Shown: one piece after another, positions 8,270 to 53,841 of the stretch
How positions within the stretch are numbered: the first letter of the stretch is position 1
Layout of the letters: every line of letters starts with the position of its first letter
NCBI RefSeq assembly: GCF_013177675.1
Contig: NZ_CP042652.1
Location: forward strand, 1,488,001 to 1,552,000
DNA length: 64,000 nucleotides
Direction: 5' to 3'
DNA from: Arcobacter acticola
GTDB lineage: Bacteria; Campylobacterota; Campylobacteria; Campylobacterales; Arcobacteraceae
Made by a program: the position numbers and the translations under genes
Notes under the pieces: model-generated
Told to the model about the DNA's origin: nothing
What the model saw: only the letters and a program-made list of their open reading frames with translations
Databases searched by the model: none

Positions 8270-9481
8270 TTATAAAACTAGTTTTATAGTAAAAATAGAG
8301 CCATCTTTGGTATTTTTATGGCTAAGTTGTCCATCTAAACTTTTTTCTATAATCATTTTAGACATAAAAAGCCCAAGTCCTGTTCCTTGAGATTTATGTT
8401 TTGTTGTAAAGTAGGGCTCAAATATTTTATCTATATTTTCTTTAGTAATTCCCCCTGCATTATCACTTATTTCTAAGAGAGAGTATTTTTTATCTAAAAT
8501 TTGCTTTTCTTTTAATGTAATCATTATAGTTCTATTTGTTATATCGTTTTGAATAAATGCATCTTTTGAGTTCTGAATTAGGTTTATGATTACTTGTGAA
8601 AGTTCATTTGATACACCTATAACTTTATAATTAATTGGAACATCAATTTGAATGTGAATATTTTCTAACTCTATTACCTTTCTTAGTACCATTAAAGCTT
8701 CATTTACAGCTTCTTTAATTTCAAAGCTTTTTTTCTCTTTTTGTGGATTAAAGAAATTTGAAAAATCTTCTATGGTTAAAGACATATTTGAAATAAGGCT
8801 TTTACTTTCTTTATATAATTCATCTACTTTTTTCTCATTGTTTTGTGTACAGGCTTTTTTCATATTAAAAAGTGTAAGATTAAGCTCTGTTAATGGCTGT
8901 CTCCATTGGTGAGCTATATTTGCTAACATTTGACCTAAACTTGCCATTCTTGATTGCCAAAAAAGAAGTTTTTGTTTCTCTTCATTTTTTTTAATCTCTT
9001 CTTGAACTCTTTGCTCTAGTGTTTTATTTAACTCTTTTAACTGTTTTGTTTGTTCTTTTACTTTTTGTTCTAAATTTAGATTTAACTGCTCAAGCTCTTT
9101 CTCTTTTAATTCAAGGCTTTTTTTGAGTTCAACTTCAGCAGTTACATCATATCTAATTGCAATAAATTCAATTATGTTTTGATTTTCATCTAGTATTGGA
9201 GTAATTGTAGTATTTAAATAAACTGTTGAACCATTTTTTGATAGATTTTTAACAGTTGCTTTAAAGGGTTTTTTTGAAAGTATTGTTTGCCATAGAGTTT
9301 CAAAATTTGAAGTAGCAACCTCTGGATGTCTTACGATATTATGGTTTTGACCTATCAGTTCATCATAAGAGTATCCAGAAATTTTGCAAAACTCATCATT
9401 TACAAAAGTTATAATTCCATTTATATCAGTTTTTGATACTATATTTGAATTTTCAATTGCTTCTTGATAAGTATTGCTCAT
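8270..9481 (-). CDS. PAS-domain sensor histidine kinase, soluble
   Basis: The 403-residue kinase has a PAS domain (about residues 5-115, with the aerotaxis-type stretch GYSYDELIGQNHNIVRHPE), a coiled coil (about 116-172), a DHp helix with the phosphorylated His191 in ANIAHQWRQPL, and a HATPase domain with ISDNAGGI and GTGLGLFMSK. No membrane helix or signal peptide is seen, so it probably senses an internal signal such as redox state or a bound cofactor. It is encoded just before its cognate OmpR-type regulator. The hemB gene ends next to its start. Confidence 0.9.
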   Translation of the reverse strand: MSNTYQEAIENSNIVSKTDINGIITFVNDEFCKISGYSYDELIGQNHNIVRHPEVATSNFETLWQTILSKKPFKATVKNLSKNGSTVYLNTTITPILDENQNIIEFIAIRYDVTAEVELKKSLELKEKELEQLNLNLEQKVKEQTKQLKELNKTLEQRVQEEIKKNEEKQKLLFWQSRMASLGQMLANIAHQWRQPLTELNLTLFNMKKACTQNNEKKVDELYKESKSLISNMSLTIEDFSNFFNPQKEKKSFEIKEAVNEALMVLRKVIELENIHIQIDVPINYKVIGVSNELSQVIINLIQNSKDAFIQNDITNRTIMITLKEKQILDKKYSLLEISDNAGGITKENIDKIFEPYFTTKHKSQGTGLGLFMSKMIIEKSLDGQLSHKNTKDGSIFTIKLVL

Positions 9482-18724: not shown

Positions 18725-18763
18725 TTTTATTTTTCGGAAAGGTTATATTTCCGAAAAATAAAA
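18725..18763. terminator. Strong bidirectional terminator
   Basis: A perfect 16-bp inverted repeat (18725-18740 with 18748-18763, GC core TCGG/CCGA) encloses the loop GGTTATA, with T-runs on both strands. It lies between the lipoprotein gene and the convergent tRNA operon. Confidence 0.8.
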
Positions 18764-26341: not shown

Positions 26342-26998
26342 ATGTTGATAGTAGATGAAATTATTGAAAAATTAAAAGACATATTAAGTGCCGATGGGAA
26401 AAATGGAAAAGTATTTGATAAAGATGTTGCTACTTCACTTGAATTAAGTCAAGCAAATTTTGCAACAATGAAAAATAGAGGAAAAATTCCATTTTCAAAT
26501 ATATTGAATTTTTGTGCTAAAAAAAAGATATCTATAAATTGGCTTTTATATGATCAAAATCCTGGTTCATTAGTTGATTCAACGGATAAATATTGGATTA
26601 AATATTATCCTTCAGTTGCCGTTAGTGCAGGGGGAGGTGCATATGAAGCTGAGGAAAACTATGAATCTTTGGCATTGCCTGAATATTTTATAAGTATGTT
26701 AGGTGGAAAAGAAAATTTAAAAAATATCGATGCTATAAATGTAGTAGGGGATTCAATGGAACCTACACTTAATAGTGATAACATTATATTTGTTGATAAA
26801 ACAAAAAAAGATGCCCTAAGAGATGGAATATATGCTTTTACTACAACTCATGGTTTATTTGTAAAAAGAATACAAAGAAGGGTTGATGGAAAGCTTGATA
26901 TCATTTCTGATAATAAAGATTATCCATCTCAAATTTTAAATAAAAATGATTTAGAGATATTAGGAAAAGTAATTAGTTCTTTTGGAATGGTTTATTAA
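26342..26998 (+). CDS. CI-repressor-like regulator with S24 peptidase domain
   Basis: The 218-residue protein has an N-terminal helix-turn-helix of phage CI type (about residues 5-70, DVATSLELSQANFATMKNRG) and a C-terminal LexA/CI-type peptidase domain with catalytic Ser138 (VVGDSMEPT) and Lys175 (LFVKRIQ). A possible self-cleavage site is the Ala-Gly in VSAGGG (residues 95-99). Such proteins can respond to DNA damage by self-cleavage. No phage genes are nearby, so it looks like a resident chromosomal regulator with its own promoter. Confidence 0.85.
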   Translation: MLIVDEIIEKLKDILSADGKNGKVFDKDVATSLELSQANFATMKNRGKIPFSNILNFCAKKKISINWLLYDQNPGSLVDSTDKYWIKYYPSVAVSAGGGAYEAEENYESLALPEYFISMLGGKENLKNIDAINVVGDSMEPTLNSDNIIFVDKTKKDALRDGIYAFTTTHGLFVKRIQRRVDGKLDIISDNKDYPSQILNKNDLEILGKVISSFGMVY

Positions 26999-32240: not shown

Positions 32241-33870
32241 TTGATAAAGAAATTGGATTTTCTTTATTTAAATAGTTATTATAAATATAATAGTTTGCTA
32301 AAACTTTTTTACCATATTCTCTAGTTTCTGCGTAAGAAATCAATTCCATACTTAAAAAAGGTTCATATTTATTTTTTTCTTTAAATAAACCTTTTTTTAG
32401 TTGAGTTCTTGTATATCCCGCACCACCATTATATGCATAGGCAATAAAAAGAGGATTATTATCAAACTGACTCATTAGTGAATCTAAATGAAAACTTCCA
32501 TATCTTATATTAGTTTGGGGAACAAATTGTTCATAGATATTGTAATCTTCTTTAAGTCTTTTTGCAATATCCAAAGATAAAAATGGCATTATTTGCATCA
32601 CACCTTGTGCTGAAGAAAAAGATATTGATGAAGGAATGAATAAACTCTCTTGTCTTGCAATTGAATAAAGTAACACTTGTTTATAAATATCATAATCTTT
32701 TACTATATCTCTAAATGGAGTAATAAAGTATTGAACTTGATATTTGTTATATCTTTGTAAAACAAAAGCATAGTGAGCTAAAGTTGTTTCATCTGTAAAA
32801 AGATTATAATATTTTGATAATTTAGCATCATCAAGATTTTTCTTTGTATCTTCAACAACATCCATCCATTTAAAAGCATCATAAATATCATATGATGTTT
32901 TTTCATTTTTTAAGTCGATGTTATAAACGATATTATCAATTTTCACATCTAATAACTCTTTTGCATATAAAGTATAAATACTAGTATCCCAACTTTTTGA
33001 TAACTCTACTAAAAAAGAGTTGTTTTGAGTAACTAAATACATCCAAAACAAAGTTTTATCTTTATCTACTTTTAAATATGATCTATTATAAGCATTGTAA
33101 AAAAAGTTATATGCACTACTTATATCATTGTTATTTACAGCATTTATTCCTAATGAAAACAATAAATGAGGAGCCAAGGTTTTATCATCTTTTAAAGAGA
33201 TTAGTGATTTCTGTAAATTCTTTAACTTATCATCATGAACAACATATCTTAGAAATCTTTCAAAATCTTTCTCTTTTGAAATTTTATTTATAAATTCAGG
33301 ATTCATAATCTTATTTAAAGTACTAACTCTATAATCACTTCCTGTGTCAAAGAAAATCCTAGAAAATCTGTTTGTATCTGAATTTATTAATGCATTAAAT
33401 GGATCATCAGAAGCAATTACTTCTAAATCATTTTTTAAAGTAGGGTAGGGATCAAGTTTACTAATGAAAAACTTTAAATCTTTTTTTGAAATTTTTGTTG
33501 CTTCACTTAAAGATAAGCCAAGAGCTATACATTTTGAATCTTCTTGTTTTAATTGCTCTATTGAGGCTCTATAACATTTTAAGTCAAGGGGCGCAGTTGT
33601 TTGAAATTTTTTATTAAAAAGTTTTTTTAAAGTTGCATTTCTTCCATTACCCATTTCATAAGCAGTTTTAGCATTTTCAAAAGAGATGTCTTCTTGTTCT
33701 AAATATTGAATAATAAAAAAATCTTTTGCTGATGATTGTGGTTTTTTTTCTAACCAATCAAGAGTAACTTTAAAATCTTTTTGTAAAAAATCTGTAGTGG
33801 CTGAAACATTGCCACTAGCAGATAAATTAAATAAAACAGTACTAACTAAACTAAGTATTATTTTTTTCAT
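32206..33870 (-). CDS. slt: Soluble lytic murein transglycosylase
   Basis: Slt cleaves peptidoglycan glycan strands in the periplasm, leaving anhydro-muramic ends. The 554-residue protein has an N-terminal signal peptide (about residues 1-19), a long helical repeat region (about 20-390) and a C-terminal SLT domain with the catalytic glutamate in ARQESLF, followed by SSAQGVMQIMP and AYNGGAG. The 3' end overlaps the convergent lipoprotein gene. yggT lies 7 bp upstream in the operon. Confidence 0.92.
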   Translation of the reverse strand: MKKIILSLVSTVLFNLSASGNVSATTDFLQKDFKVTLDWLEKKPQSSAKDFFIIQYLEQEDISFENAKTAYEMGNGRNATLKKLFNKKFQTTAPLDLKCYRASIEQLKQEDSKCIALGLSLSEATKISKKDLKFFISKLDPYPTLKNDLEVIASDDPFNALINSDTNRFSRIFFDTGSDYRVSTLNKIMNPEFINKISKEKDFERFLRYVVHDDKLKNLQKSLISLKDDKTLAPHLLFSLGINAVNNNDISSAYNFFYNAYNRSYLKVDKDKTLFWMYLVTQNNSFLVELSKSWDTSIYTLYAKELLDVKIDNIVYNIDLKNEKTSYDIYDAFKWMDVVEDTKKNLDDAKLSKYYNLFTDETTLAHYAFVLQRYNKYQVQYFITPFRDIVKDYDIYKQVLLYSIARQESLFIPSSISFSSAQGVMQIMPFLSLDIAKRLKEDYNIYEQFVPQTNIRYGSFHLDSLMSQFDNNPLFIAYAYNGGAGYTRTQLKKGLFKEKNKYEPFLSMELISYAETREYGKKVLANYYIYNNYLNKENPISLSTIFQSLVSPSY

Positions 33871-50036: not shown

Positions 50037-51104
50037 TCAACTCATCAAATCAATTGTTGCTTTTAATCTTTCCTTGTCAAAGTGTGTATAAATTCTTGAA
50101 GTATTAATATCAGCATGACCTAAAGCTTCTTGAACTAATATCAAATCATGATGTTTTTGGTAAAGTAGGGTTGCAAAACTATGTCTTAACATATGAGCAC
50201 CATTTTTTTCTTTCCTTATTCCTGCACTTATTAGTATATTTTCAACAATTCTACTAACATATGCCTGTGTTAATCTATTTCCTGATTTGTTACAAACTAA
50301 TAAATCACTGTTACAAACTCTAATATTAAGCCAATTTTTTAATTCATCTTCTATTATTGAAGATTTAATCATTACAATTCTTGGTTTATTTCCTTTTCCT
50401 TTTATTTGTAAAACATAGACATTATCTTCTTTAAACATGTCTTTTAGTTTTAAATTAAGAATTTCACTAACCCTAATACCTGTATAAATAATGATTTTTA
50501 AAATAAGCCTATTTCGATAAGCTATATTTTCAGTAAACTCAAAATCATCAATCTCACTTAAAAATCTATCTATTTCACTTTTATTCATGTAAGAGGGTAG
50601 TTTAGTACCACTTTTTCCGCTTAATCCACCCCAGTTTTTTAACTCTATTTTATATAAATATGAACTACCATCTTCATTTTGGTTTTGTTTATCTATATAT
50701 GAGAACAAAGCAAGTAGGGCAATTCTATGATTTTTTTTTGAAGCATCTGATAATGAACTAGTTTCTGATGCTAAAAAATCACTTAGTAATTCTTCATCAA
50801 TTTCTTTCATTGAAGCAAGTCCTAGATTAGCTATGAAATTGTATAGCTTTAAAAGAGGGTTAAAATATGTATTTATTCCACTTAAACCTATATTTCTAGC
50901 ATCTTTTACAATAATAGACAATTCATCTATACTTTTTGTACCTTTTACTAATGATTGAATAATAAAAGCTAAACGTTCTTTGTCAGTTACTTGTCTATTT
51001 GATAAGGTTGTTAATTTGTACCTTATAAATCTTTCAATCCAAAATAAAAGAGTTCTATCAAAACTATTTGTAAAATCTAAGTCATATCTCATGCATGTAT
51101 CCAT
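50037..51104 (-). CDS. xerH: XerH-type tyrosine recombinase
   Basis: XerH is the single recombinase that resolves chromosome dimers at dif in many Campylobacterota. The 355-residue protein has the N-terminal SAM-like arm-binding region (about 1-175) and a catalytic domain with Arg in YTGIRVSEIL, HMLRHSF, the histidine in LGHADINTS and the nucleophile Tyr in RIYTHF. It is longer than XerC/XerD, as expected for XerH. A dif-like palindrome lies 59 bp upstream, which supports a chromosome-resolution role over an integrase of a mobile element. Confidence 0.92.
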   Translation of the reverse strand: MDTCMRYDLDFTNSFDRTLLFWIERFIRYKLTTLSNRQVTDKERLAFIIQSLVKGTKSIDELSIIVKDARNIGLSGINTYFNPLLKLYNFIANLGLASMKEIDEELLSDFLASETSSLSDASKKNHRIALLALFSYIDKQNQNEDGSSYLYKIELKNWGGLSGKSGTKLPSYMNKSEIDRFLSEIDDFEFTENIAYRNRLILKIIIYTGIRVSEILNLKLKDMFKEDNVYVLQIKGKGNKPRIVMIKSSIIEDELKNWLNIRVCNSDLLVCNKSGNRLTQAYVSRIVENILISAGIRKEKNGAHMLRHSFATLLYQKHHDLILVQEALGHADINTSRIYTHFDKERLKATIDLMS

Positions 51105-51160
51105 TTGTTAAGTATTGTTGTATAAAGTGTTATTATAAGTGATTCTATCATAAGTATATT

Positions 51161-51197
51161 TAATTAGTATTGAAAACTATAATTTTCAAACTAATTT
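51161..51197. other. Candidate difH chromosome-dimer resolution site
   Basis: ATTAGTATTGAAAA (51163-51176) and TTTTCAAACTAAT (51183-51195) are near-perfect inverted arms separated by the six bases CTATAA, the geometry of a Xer site. The inner arms GAAAA/TTTTC resemble the Campylobacterota difH sites as I remember them. It lies immediately upstream of xerH. Confidence 0.7.
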
Positions 51198-51217: not shown

Positions 51218-52291
51218 CTATTTTCTTTTTCCTTTTGCAAAATCTATAATATAATCAGCTATTTGATCTAAATGAATTATATCTTTCACTGCACCTGCTT
51301 GAATAGCTTTCATAGGCATTCCAAAAACAACACAACTTTCTTCATTTTGAGCAATTGTATATGCACCATTGTCAAAAAGTTCTTTCATAGCAATTGTTCC
51401 ATCATCTCCCATACCTGTCATCATAATTGCCATTGCTGCAGAACCAATGTTATTATTAACAGATCTAAATAAAACATCAACACTTGGTTTATGCTGACTT
51501 ACTTTTTTTGTATCTAAAAGTTTTGTTCTATATTCATTTCCGATTTTTTCAATAGTAAGATGCATATTCCCAGGGGCTAGATATCCATGCCCTCTTTCCA
51601 AAATCATTCCATCTGTTGCTTCACAAACAGTAACTTGTGAATAATCATTTAATCTATGAGCAAAAGAGTTTGAAAATCCATAAGGAATATGTTGTGTTAT
51701 TAAAATAGGAGGTAAATCAGATGGTAATTTTTTAAAAACCCTAAGTAAAGATTCAACTCCACCTGTTGATGAACCAATTGCAATAAGTTTCATTCCGGGT
51801 AATTTTGAAGGGTTTGAAGGTATTACTTCATCGGGATGAATTTTATATTCAATATTTAAAGTATTTGTAGGAACTTTTTTAGTTCCTTTTGGTTTTTTTA
51901 AAGTATATCTTTTTAATAAGAATGTTAAGTTTAATAGTGTATCTTTAACTCTATCTTGAAAAGACTGCATAGATTCACCATTAGATGGTTTTGGGATAAA
52001 TCCTACAGCACCATCATCAAAAATATCATTACCTCTAACACTTTCTCCTGAAATAATAACTGCAGGCATAGGGTGAAGTCTCATTAAGTTTCTTAAAAAA
52101 ACAACTCCATCCATTTTTGGCATATTTATATCAATAGTAACTAAATCTGGTTCATATTCTTTAATTTTTTCTCTAGCATCAAAAGCATCTGTAGCAACAC
52201 AAACAACTTCAAACTCATCAATAGAATTAATCATATCTTTAATAATTCTTCTCATAGAAGCTGAATCATCAATAACTAAGACTGTATACAT
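51218..52291 (-). CDS. cheB: Chemotaxis protein-glutamate methylesterase CheB
   Basis: CheB removes methyl groups from, and deamidates, chemoreceptors. Residues about 1-120 are a receiver domain (VLVIDDSASMRR and phosphoacceptor in LVTIDINMPKMDG). Residues about 165-355 are the methylesterase domain with GSSTGG, ITQHIP and MMTGMGDDG. The ATG at 52291 is preferred to an upstream GTG. It is the last gene of the cheY-cheA-cheR-cheD-cheB run and unlike many Campylobacter CheB proteins it retains the receiver domain. Confidence 0.95.
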   Translation of the reverse strand: MYTVLVIDDSASMRRIIKDMINSIDEFEVVCVATDAFDAREKIKEYEPDLVTIDINMPKMDGVVFLRNLMRLHPMPAVIISGESVRGNDIFDDGAVGFIPKPSNGESMQSFQDRVKDTLLNLTFLLKRYTLKKPKGTKKVPTNTLNIEYKIHPDEVIPSNPSKLPGMKLIAIGSSTGGVESLLRVFKKLPSDLPPILITQHIPYGFSNSFAHRLNDYSQVTVCEATDGMILERGHGYLAPGNMHLTIEKIGNEYRTKLLDTKKVSQHKPSVDVLFRSVNNNIGSAAMAIMMTGMGDDGTIAMKELFDNGAYTIAQNEESCVVFGMPMKAIQAGAVKDIIHLDQIADYIIDFAKGKRK

Positions 52292-52321
52292 CACTATTTA
52301 CCAACTTCTTTTTTAATTTTA

Positions 52322-52999: not shown

Positions 53000-53841
53000 A
53001 TGATATCCTTTTCTTTAACAAAGATATTTTGCCCTACTCTTTTTACATAGTGAACTAAATCTTGAGGATTTTCAGAATGTCCTAAGTATAAAGTACCACC
53101 AATCTTTAAGTGTTTAAATAGTTTTTTTAGAATTTTATTCTGATCTTCTGATGAAAAATATATCAAAACATTTCTACAAAAAATAACATCAAATTGATGA
53201 GAGGAAAAAGGATATGTATTATCATTTAAATTCATAACTTGAAAAGTAATCATTCTTTTTAGTTCATCATTTACTTTAATTAAAACTTCTTCCCCCGCAA
53301 GATTTTTTTGAACTCTTCTTTTGAAATATTTTTGAGGTTTTATCCATGATGGAAATTCCTTTGATGATTTTGAATATCTATAAATTCCATTTGCAGCATA
53401 TTCAAGTACGCTTGTATCAATATCAGTAGCAATAATTGAAGCTAATATATTTTTATTCAATTGATCTTTTGCTTCAAAAACACTCATTGCCATAGAGTAA
53501 GGCTCTTCTCCCGTTGATGATGCAGAACAATACATCTGTATTTTATTTCCATTATTTGCAAACATAGGAAGAACTCTATCTTTTAAATCTAAAAAATGAA
53601 AATCTTCCCTAAAAAAATGGGTTTTATTAGTAGTAAAAGAGTTTATAAACTCTGTTAAATGATTACCTTGTTCAATAGATTTTAATAAATCAACAACATC
53701 ACCATTATAATTACAATTTCTTTTTAATTTATCAATTCTATTTGAAATCATAATATCTTTATTATCAGCTAGAGTAATGCCAGTTAAAGAATAAAGAAGT
53801 TTTTTTACTTTTTCATGAATTTCTTGTGTCGAATTACTCAT
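52996..53841 (-). CDS. cheR: Chemotaxis protein methyltransferase CheR
   Basis: CheR methylates receptor glutamates using SAM. The 281-residue protein has the N-terminal helical domain, FTTNKTHFFRE, the SAM loop MYCSASSTGEEPYSMAM and the FDVIFCRNVLIYF motif, ending in GGTLYLGHSE. It lies between cheA (5 bp) and cheD (overlap), and with cheB gives a complete adaptation module. Confidence 0.95.
   Translation of the reverse strand: MSNSTQEIHEKVKKLLYSLTGITLADNKDIMISNRIDKLKRNCNYNGDVVDLLKSIEQGNHLTEFINSFTTNKTHFFREDFHFLDLKDRVLPMFANNGNKIQMYCSASSTGEEPYSMAMSVFEAKDQLNKNILASIIATDIDTSVLEYAANGIYRYSKSSKEFPSWIKPQKYFKRRVQKNLAGEEVLIKVNDELKRMITFQVMNLNDNTYPFSSHQFDVIFCRNVLIYFSSEDQNKILKKLFKHLKIGGTLYLGHSENPQDLVHYVKRVGQNIFVKEKDII

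Follow-up and report, generated by a model that had tools for sequence, protein, structure and literature searches.

Most bacteria have the XerCD/dif system, with a pair of recombinases acting at a site of 28 bp. Both this system and streptococcal difSL/XerS resolve chromosome dimers by tyrosine recombination at a single site close to the terminus, and the same would apply to the locus described here. XerS was stated to be phylogenetically unrelated to XerH (PMC2731167).

The difH/XerH system of H. pylori (5jjv/5jk0; PMC5241119, PMC3325230), in which the left arm is bound and cleaved first (PMC5241119), shares with our locus the arm design, the extra base in the left arm and a homologous recombinase. 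The two differ in the centre of the site (CTATAA here, CTGCAC in H. pylori) and in the distance between xerH and difH, which is 59 bp here and about 2 kb in H. pylori 26695 (PMC2731167). The KOPS proposed for H. pylori is AGTAGGGG (PMC3325230), whereas our candidate is AAGTAGGG(C). Two further described systems are those of A. nitrofigilis, whose difH has the same letters as ours (PMC2731167, PMC3325230 Table 2), and A. butzleri. In both species, difH is linked to xerH in the same way, intergenic, low in G+C and located near mid-chromosome. The A. butzleri site lies 66 bp from xerH and differs in the right outer arm; otherwise nothing of substance sets it apart.

The difH site, its partner genes and its place on the chromosome

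An inverted repeat consisting of two arms around a 6-base centre was located at positions 51162-51196 of the window, i.e., the whole 64,000-nucleotide stretch of DNA that was analysed (Table 1). An earlier, sequence-only reading had described a dif-like inverted repeat next to xerH, and the repeat is present as described, with arms of 15 and 14 nt and CTATAA at its centre. The arms form 14 paired positions, and the left arm contains one extra base. By alignment, the conserved outer GT of the left arm corresponds to G3/T4 of H. pylori difH, and the one-base insertion and the conserved outer T match the description in PMC5241119. TTGAAAA and TTTTCAA in the arms agree with the consensus of PMC2731167 Table 2. 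Alignment with known difH sequences bore out the dif-like character of the site: its 31-mer is identical, in 31 of 31 letters, to difH of A. nitrofigilis (PMC3325230 Table 2). The site is non-coding, lies between cheB and xerH, and is low in G+C (5 of 31 letters). Allowing up to three mismatches, the 31-mer was found once in the 3,019,071-base genome, at 1,539,164, and no better dif match exists elsewhere within this limit.

The window was also scanned for repeats that have a centre of 6 bases and 14 or more pairs, with no more than one bulge. Four hits were obtained at three places, the difH repeat included (two hits share one place). The same scan of ten first-order random windows gave no hit in nine and two in one. 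An inverted repeat of the difH type alone is thus uncommon but not unique in the window, and the site was identified as difH because its letters equal those of a published difH, not because of the repeat alone. A repeat search of the window did not return the difH repeat because of the bulge. Another strong inverted repeat, terminator-like in appearance, with a CGGAAA...TTTCCG core, AT-rich flanks and 16 pairs, was seen at 18726-18763.

Table 1. Positions of the features in the window.
Feature	Position	Strand	Remarks
Left arm AATTAGTATTGAAAA	51162-51176 (15 nt)	+	From sequence; arm role from PMC5241119
Central hexamer CTATAA	51177-51182	+	From sequence; nearly self-complementary, inner TATA
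Right arm TTTTCAAACTAATT	51183-51196 (14 nt)	+	From sequence
difH 31-mer TTAGTATTGAAAACTATAATTTTCAAACTAA	51164..51194	+	Published match and single genome copy; arms extend to 51162-51196
xerH (tyrosine recombinase XerH)	50037..51104	-	355 aa as called; 5jjv_A, E 1.3e-107; Pfam PF18644, PF00589
Putative -10 box TAGAAT of xerH promoter	51142..51147	-	16 nt from difH edge
cheB-type gene	51218..52294	-	PF01339, PF00072; usual difH neighbour opposite xerH
Candidate KOPS AGTAGGG, to difH	8410..8416	+	
Candidate KOPS AGTAGGG, to difH	26743..26749	+	
Candidate KOPS AGTAGGG, to difH	33439..33445	+	
Candidate KOPS AGTAGGG, to difH	50164..50170	+	
Candidate KOPS AGTAGGG, to difH	50713..50719	+	Last before site
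Candidate KOPS AGTAGGG, to difH	53032..53038	-	First beyond site; genome position 1,541,032

The neighbouring gene was correctly taken for xerH. Its product carries both Pfam domains, and its best solved relative is H. pylori XerH (PDB 5jjv, E 1.3e-107), to which it aligns nearly end to end; the stretches HMLRHSFATLLYQK and ...SRIYTHFDK align with 5jjv without gaps. It is the sole full-length match in the genome, where two other proteins, 28-30% identical, match weakly and in the catalytic part only. The true start of xerH is probably at 51092, and the called start four codons early, because most relatives align from residue 5 (MRY.LDF) onward. The gene for an FtsK that includes a gamma domain lies at 1,567,857, 29 kb from difH. 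Since dnaA is found at base 304, difH, at 51.0% of the ring, sits opposite the origin, half-way round the chromosome.

The sequence-only reading had further argued from gene directions on both sides of the site. Genes are indeed on the plus strand from 44.8 to 49.6 kb and on the minus strand from there to the window end, but the switch lies 1.6 kb to the left of difH, with a cbiX-like gene and xerH in between, and is preceded by another minus run at 41.0-44.8 kb. In a 0.8-Mb sample of the genome (40 stretches), 58.5% of ORF bases run with replication toward difH, and the best gene-strand change point, at 1,397,275, is 142 kb away; the strand argument is thus weak, and the switch was dropped as proof. 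GC skew, proposed as a check, had the right sign on both arms (positive in 7 of 10 stretches left of the terminus region, negative in 9 of 10 right of it), but its cumulative maximum is at 1,395,001, 144 kb from difH, in a noisy curve (400-kb stretch, 1.34-1.74 Mb). This offset is beyond the range of the difH sites in PMC2731167 Table 2, because the distances listed there reach about 90 kb; the genome here is larger. The change point of the gene-corrected skew at fourfold sites was flat, with its best value at 1,654,494, 2.3 log units above dif. GC skew was therefore not kept as the main proof.

A candidate KOPS converging on difH

All 7-mers of the 0.8-Mb sample were ranked by the strength with which they point to difH. 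AGTAGGG ranked first, with 39 copies toward the site and 2 away from it, and was the most polar of the 7-mers with at least 30 occurrences in this sample. The polarity is not due to codon use, because the motif is found on either coding strand: 14 of the toward-pointing copies are sense, 21 antisense and 4 intergenic. The base before the motif is A in 27 of these 39 copies, and the base after it is C in 20.

The whole genome contains 132 copies, of which 113 point toward difH and 19 away; in this count, 32 of the reverse places were assigned to the region beyond 2.08 Mb from the order of the places. Between 330 kb and 2.08 Mb, where all places were read, 75 copies point toward difH and 3 away. 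In the first 330 kb after dnaA most copies point the wrong way, and polarity is poor near the origin. The sole best switch interval, 1,538,713-1,541,032 (2.3 kb), contains difH. A search for polar motifs of the KOPS type, as suggested by the sequence-only reading, thus gave a positive result, and it is stronger evidence than gene strand or GC skew. Two of the AGTAGGG sites lie inside xerH and may have been inherited along with it.

As AGTAGGG was chosen on its own genome, the relatives serve as the test, with the reservation that they share descent. In the own genome there are 132 copies versus 160 of the pattern read backwards; in 10 of 10 relatives, AAGTAGGG exceeded the backwards control. 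The best switch interval of AAGTAGGG holds dif in all five relatives counted, G006, G002, G003, G009 and G023 (the rest of the ten genomes being G013, G017, G021, G043 and G057); 86 of 87 places were used for G002 and 45 of 49 for G023.

For comparison, the E. coli KOPS GGGNAGGG was found 8 times toward difH and once away, and the H. pylori octamer AGTAGGGG, which equals the seven letters of AGTAGGG plus one, 6 times toward and once away; both are too rare in the 0.8-Mb sample to judge. We infer that AAGTAGGG is read by FtsK and regard it as a candidate KOPS. No statement of AGTAGGG as a KOPS for Arcobacter was found in the available parts of open-licence full texts (including PMC5495459, PMC13342612 and PMC3025954).

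Conservation, promoter, orientation and phage insertions in relatives

A single copy of the exact core TTGAAAACTNNAATTTTCAA is present in 28 of the 31 genus genomes and, over the full set of 100 genomes, in 45 (own included). Two of the three genus genomes without it, G024 and G029, have sites that differ from the 31-mer at 1 and 3 positions. xerH was found in 30 of the 31. In the 95% complete genome G004 (L061, L083), dif adjoins cheB and no xerH was found. In G020, the third genus genome without the exact core, no dif-like site was seen in the 12 kb read at the native xerH. A second XerH (64% identity) is located 15 kb from the native gene with a dif of the GG/CC type (L078 7537-8649, L079), and dimer resolution has possibly been taken over by this incoming module. 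A 56,750-base contig of another genome (G010:C2, L089) encodes an XerH that is 57% identical, next to a dif-like site, and also has a broken second copy.

A loose dif scan upstream of xerH (up to 3 core mismatches) was abandoned, as it also gave matches in 96 of 370 control pieces. The stricter scan (up to 8 mismatches of 31) gave close matches at 56 of 74 loci, counted by eye, versus 23 of 800 control pieces; it covered 74 of 80 loci, as the other six began too near a contig end. In 16 of these 56 sites, which lie in named genomes, both arms carry the TTGGAAA and TTTCCAA form (also counted by eye); this matched change in the two arms suggests that the site coevolved with XerH. This second difH type, TTGGAAA...TTTCCAA, was seen upstream of more distant xerH genes at several loci (L108-L148).

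In 29 of 30 xerH genes from the genus and the near family, difH is located 19-74 bases before the aligned xerH start. Of 28 intergenic stretches, the own one among them, 27 have a -10-like hexamer at a distance of 15-18 nt from the edge of difH (the 28 are the 30 orientation rows minus G028, with a short gap, and G029, with dif 2.4 kb from xerH). Shuffled controls gave a mean of 2.7 and, in 200 shuffles, at most 8 of 28. With the -10 box at this distance, the -35 region would overlap or touch difH, and XerH may repress its own gene.

The left arm faces xerH in 9 of 30 cases and the right arm in 21 (G029 included, despite its distant dif); these rows leave out L051, L061, L070 and L071, pieces without xerH, and L060, a cut-off second copy. 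On a xerH tree from a quick search, at least four orientation changes are required, three of them forced by well-supported branches; without G029, there are about three (tree read by eye). When the own genome was compared with G016, the flanks and the cheB-dif-xerH order were unflipped, indicating that the orientation change is confined to the difH site. The flip could have come about through a few base changes, or through a small inversion at the two arms of the repeat.

Phage-like elements were found at difH in relatives. In G007 (L080/L091, C1:1,083,817-1,107,858), the left difH half at 1,083,817 and the right half at 1,107,828 beside xerH bracket two head-to-head elements of about 12 kb each, which are separated by a complete difH in the reverse orientation. 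Among the genes of the G007 element are those for a phage lysozyme and an endonuclease of the replication type. Nine proteins were tested, with no match to an integrase family. A 9.3-kb element in G059 (L106, 664-9989) is flanked by dif (664) on one side and, next to xerH, by a half-site (9,959) on the other; its match to a viral coat family (P2 C-terminal domain) is weak, under the curated cut-off. The dif flank of a viral contig (L173) equals that of G002, and this contig carries a filamentous-phage set composed of a secretin, a Zot-family assembly protein and a replication protein. A related small winged-helix gene stands beside dif in six genomes of the genus (G002, G029, G009, G007, G017, G023). 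The Xer-using Vibrio phages (IMEX) CTX-phi, VGJ-phi and TLC-phi (PMC5357621) are likewise small and use the host Xer at dif, as the G007 and G059 prophages appear to do; in contrast to the Vibrio phages, the host site of these prophages is a difH with one recombinase. They occur in relatives, with none in this window. No description of XerH-linked prophages, or of an Arcobacter filamentous phage or inovirus at dif, was found in literature listings.

Proposed function and alternative readings

The site is almost certainly the difH of this Arcobacteraceae chromosome, at which XerH and FtsK would resolve dimers. Homologous recombination would join two sister chromosomes into a single ring. At the division septum, FtsK would then pump the DNA, in a direction set by the polar (A)AGTAGGG, until the difH copies are brought together. 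XerH, whose gene adjoins the site, would bind with one monomer per arm and cleave the stronger left arm first, and strand exchange across the 6-base centre would give two single rings. Binding, order of cleavage and dependence on FtsK are proposed here by analogy with H. pylori.

The repeat starts 23 bases past the cheB stop codon and could form a hairpin with a 6-base loop, so that it might be read as an intrinsic terminator or other hairpin for the end of cheB rather than as a recombination site. Its arms, however, are rich in A+T (5 of the 31 letters are G or C) and do not resemble a G+C-rich stem, and its letters are those of a conserved difH that is kept in relatives with other DNA beside it. 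Genus-wide conservation and motif polarity already refute this reading, and its probability is close to nil. It is very improbable, too, that the site is mainly an operator through which XerH or another protein controls xerH, with recombination being secondary. Although difH abuts a conserved -10 box in nearly all of the intergenic stretches, in other Campylobacterota difH lies up to 214 kb from xerH and keeps both its sequence and its near-terminus place (PMC2731167 Table 2). The small prophages inserted in difH of relatives, and the XerH copies of 57-64% identity on DNA that may be mobile, could be taken to mean that a mobile element uses the site for attachment, with this xerH as its integrase. 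We give this hardly any credence: the genome has no second dif-like site within three mismatches, no phage gene was noticed among the called ORFs around difH, cheB is found near dif in many relatives, and xerH is present throughout nearly the whole genus.

Besides acting as the resolution site, difH might form a self-regulating unit with xerH in the Arcobacteraceae, an idea that we put forward tentatively and consider, in all its parts jointly, rather unlikely. difH would lie over the -35 side of the promoter, and bound XerH would repress xerH. FtsK arriving along AAGTAGGG would trigger recombination and at the same time clear the promoter. Since KOPS point inward on either side and the centre is close to a palindrome, the site would be free in its orientation; it would accordingly be flipped in place, and small phages lacking an integrase would insert there.

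Resolution of dimers by XerH at difH is a system already known in kind, and the candidate KOPS converging on the site is the most useful addition. difH marks the chromosome resolution point of this genome and is a clean case of a system with a single recombinase. With the candidate KOPS, work on Arcobacter FtsK has a concrete motif to test, and the natural variants among the relatives, with flipped sites or with prophages inserted, allow the role of difH orientation to be tested.
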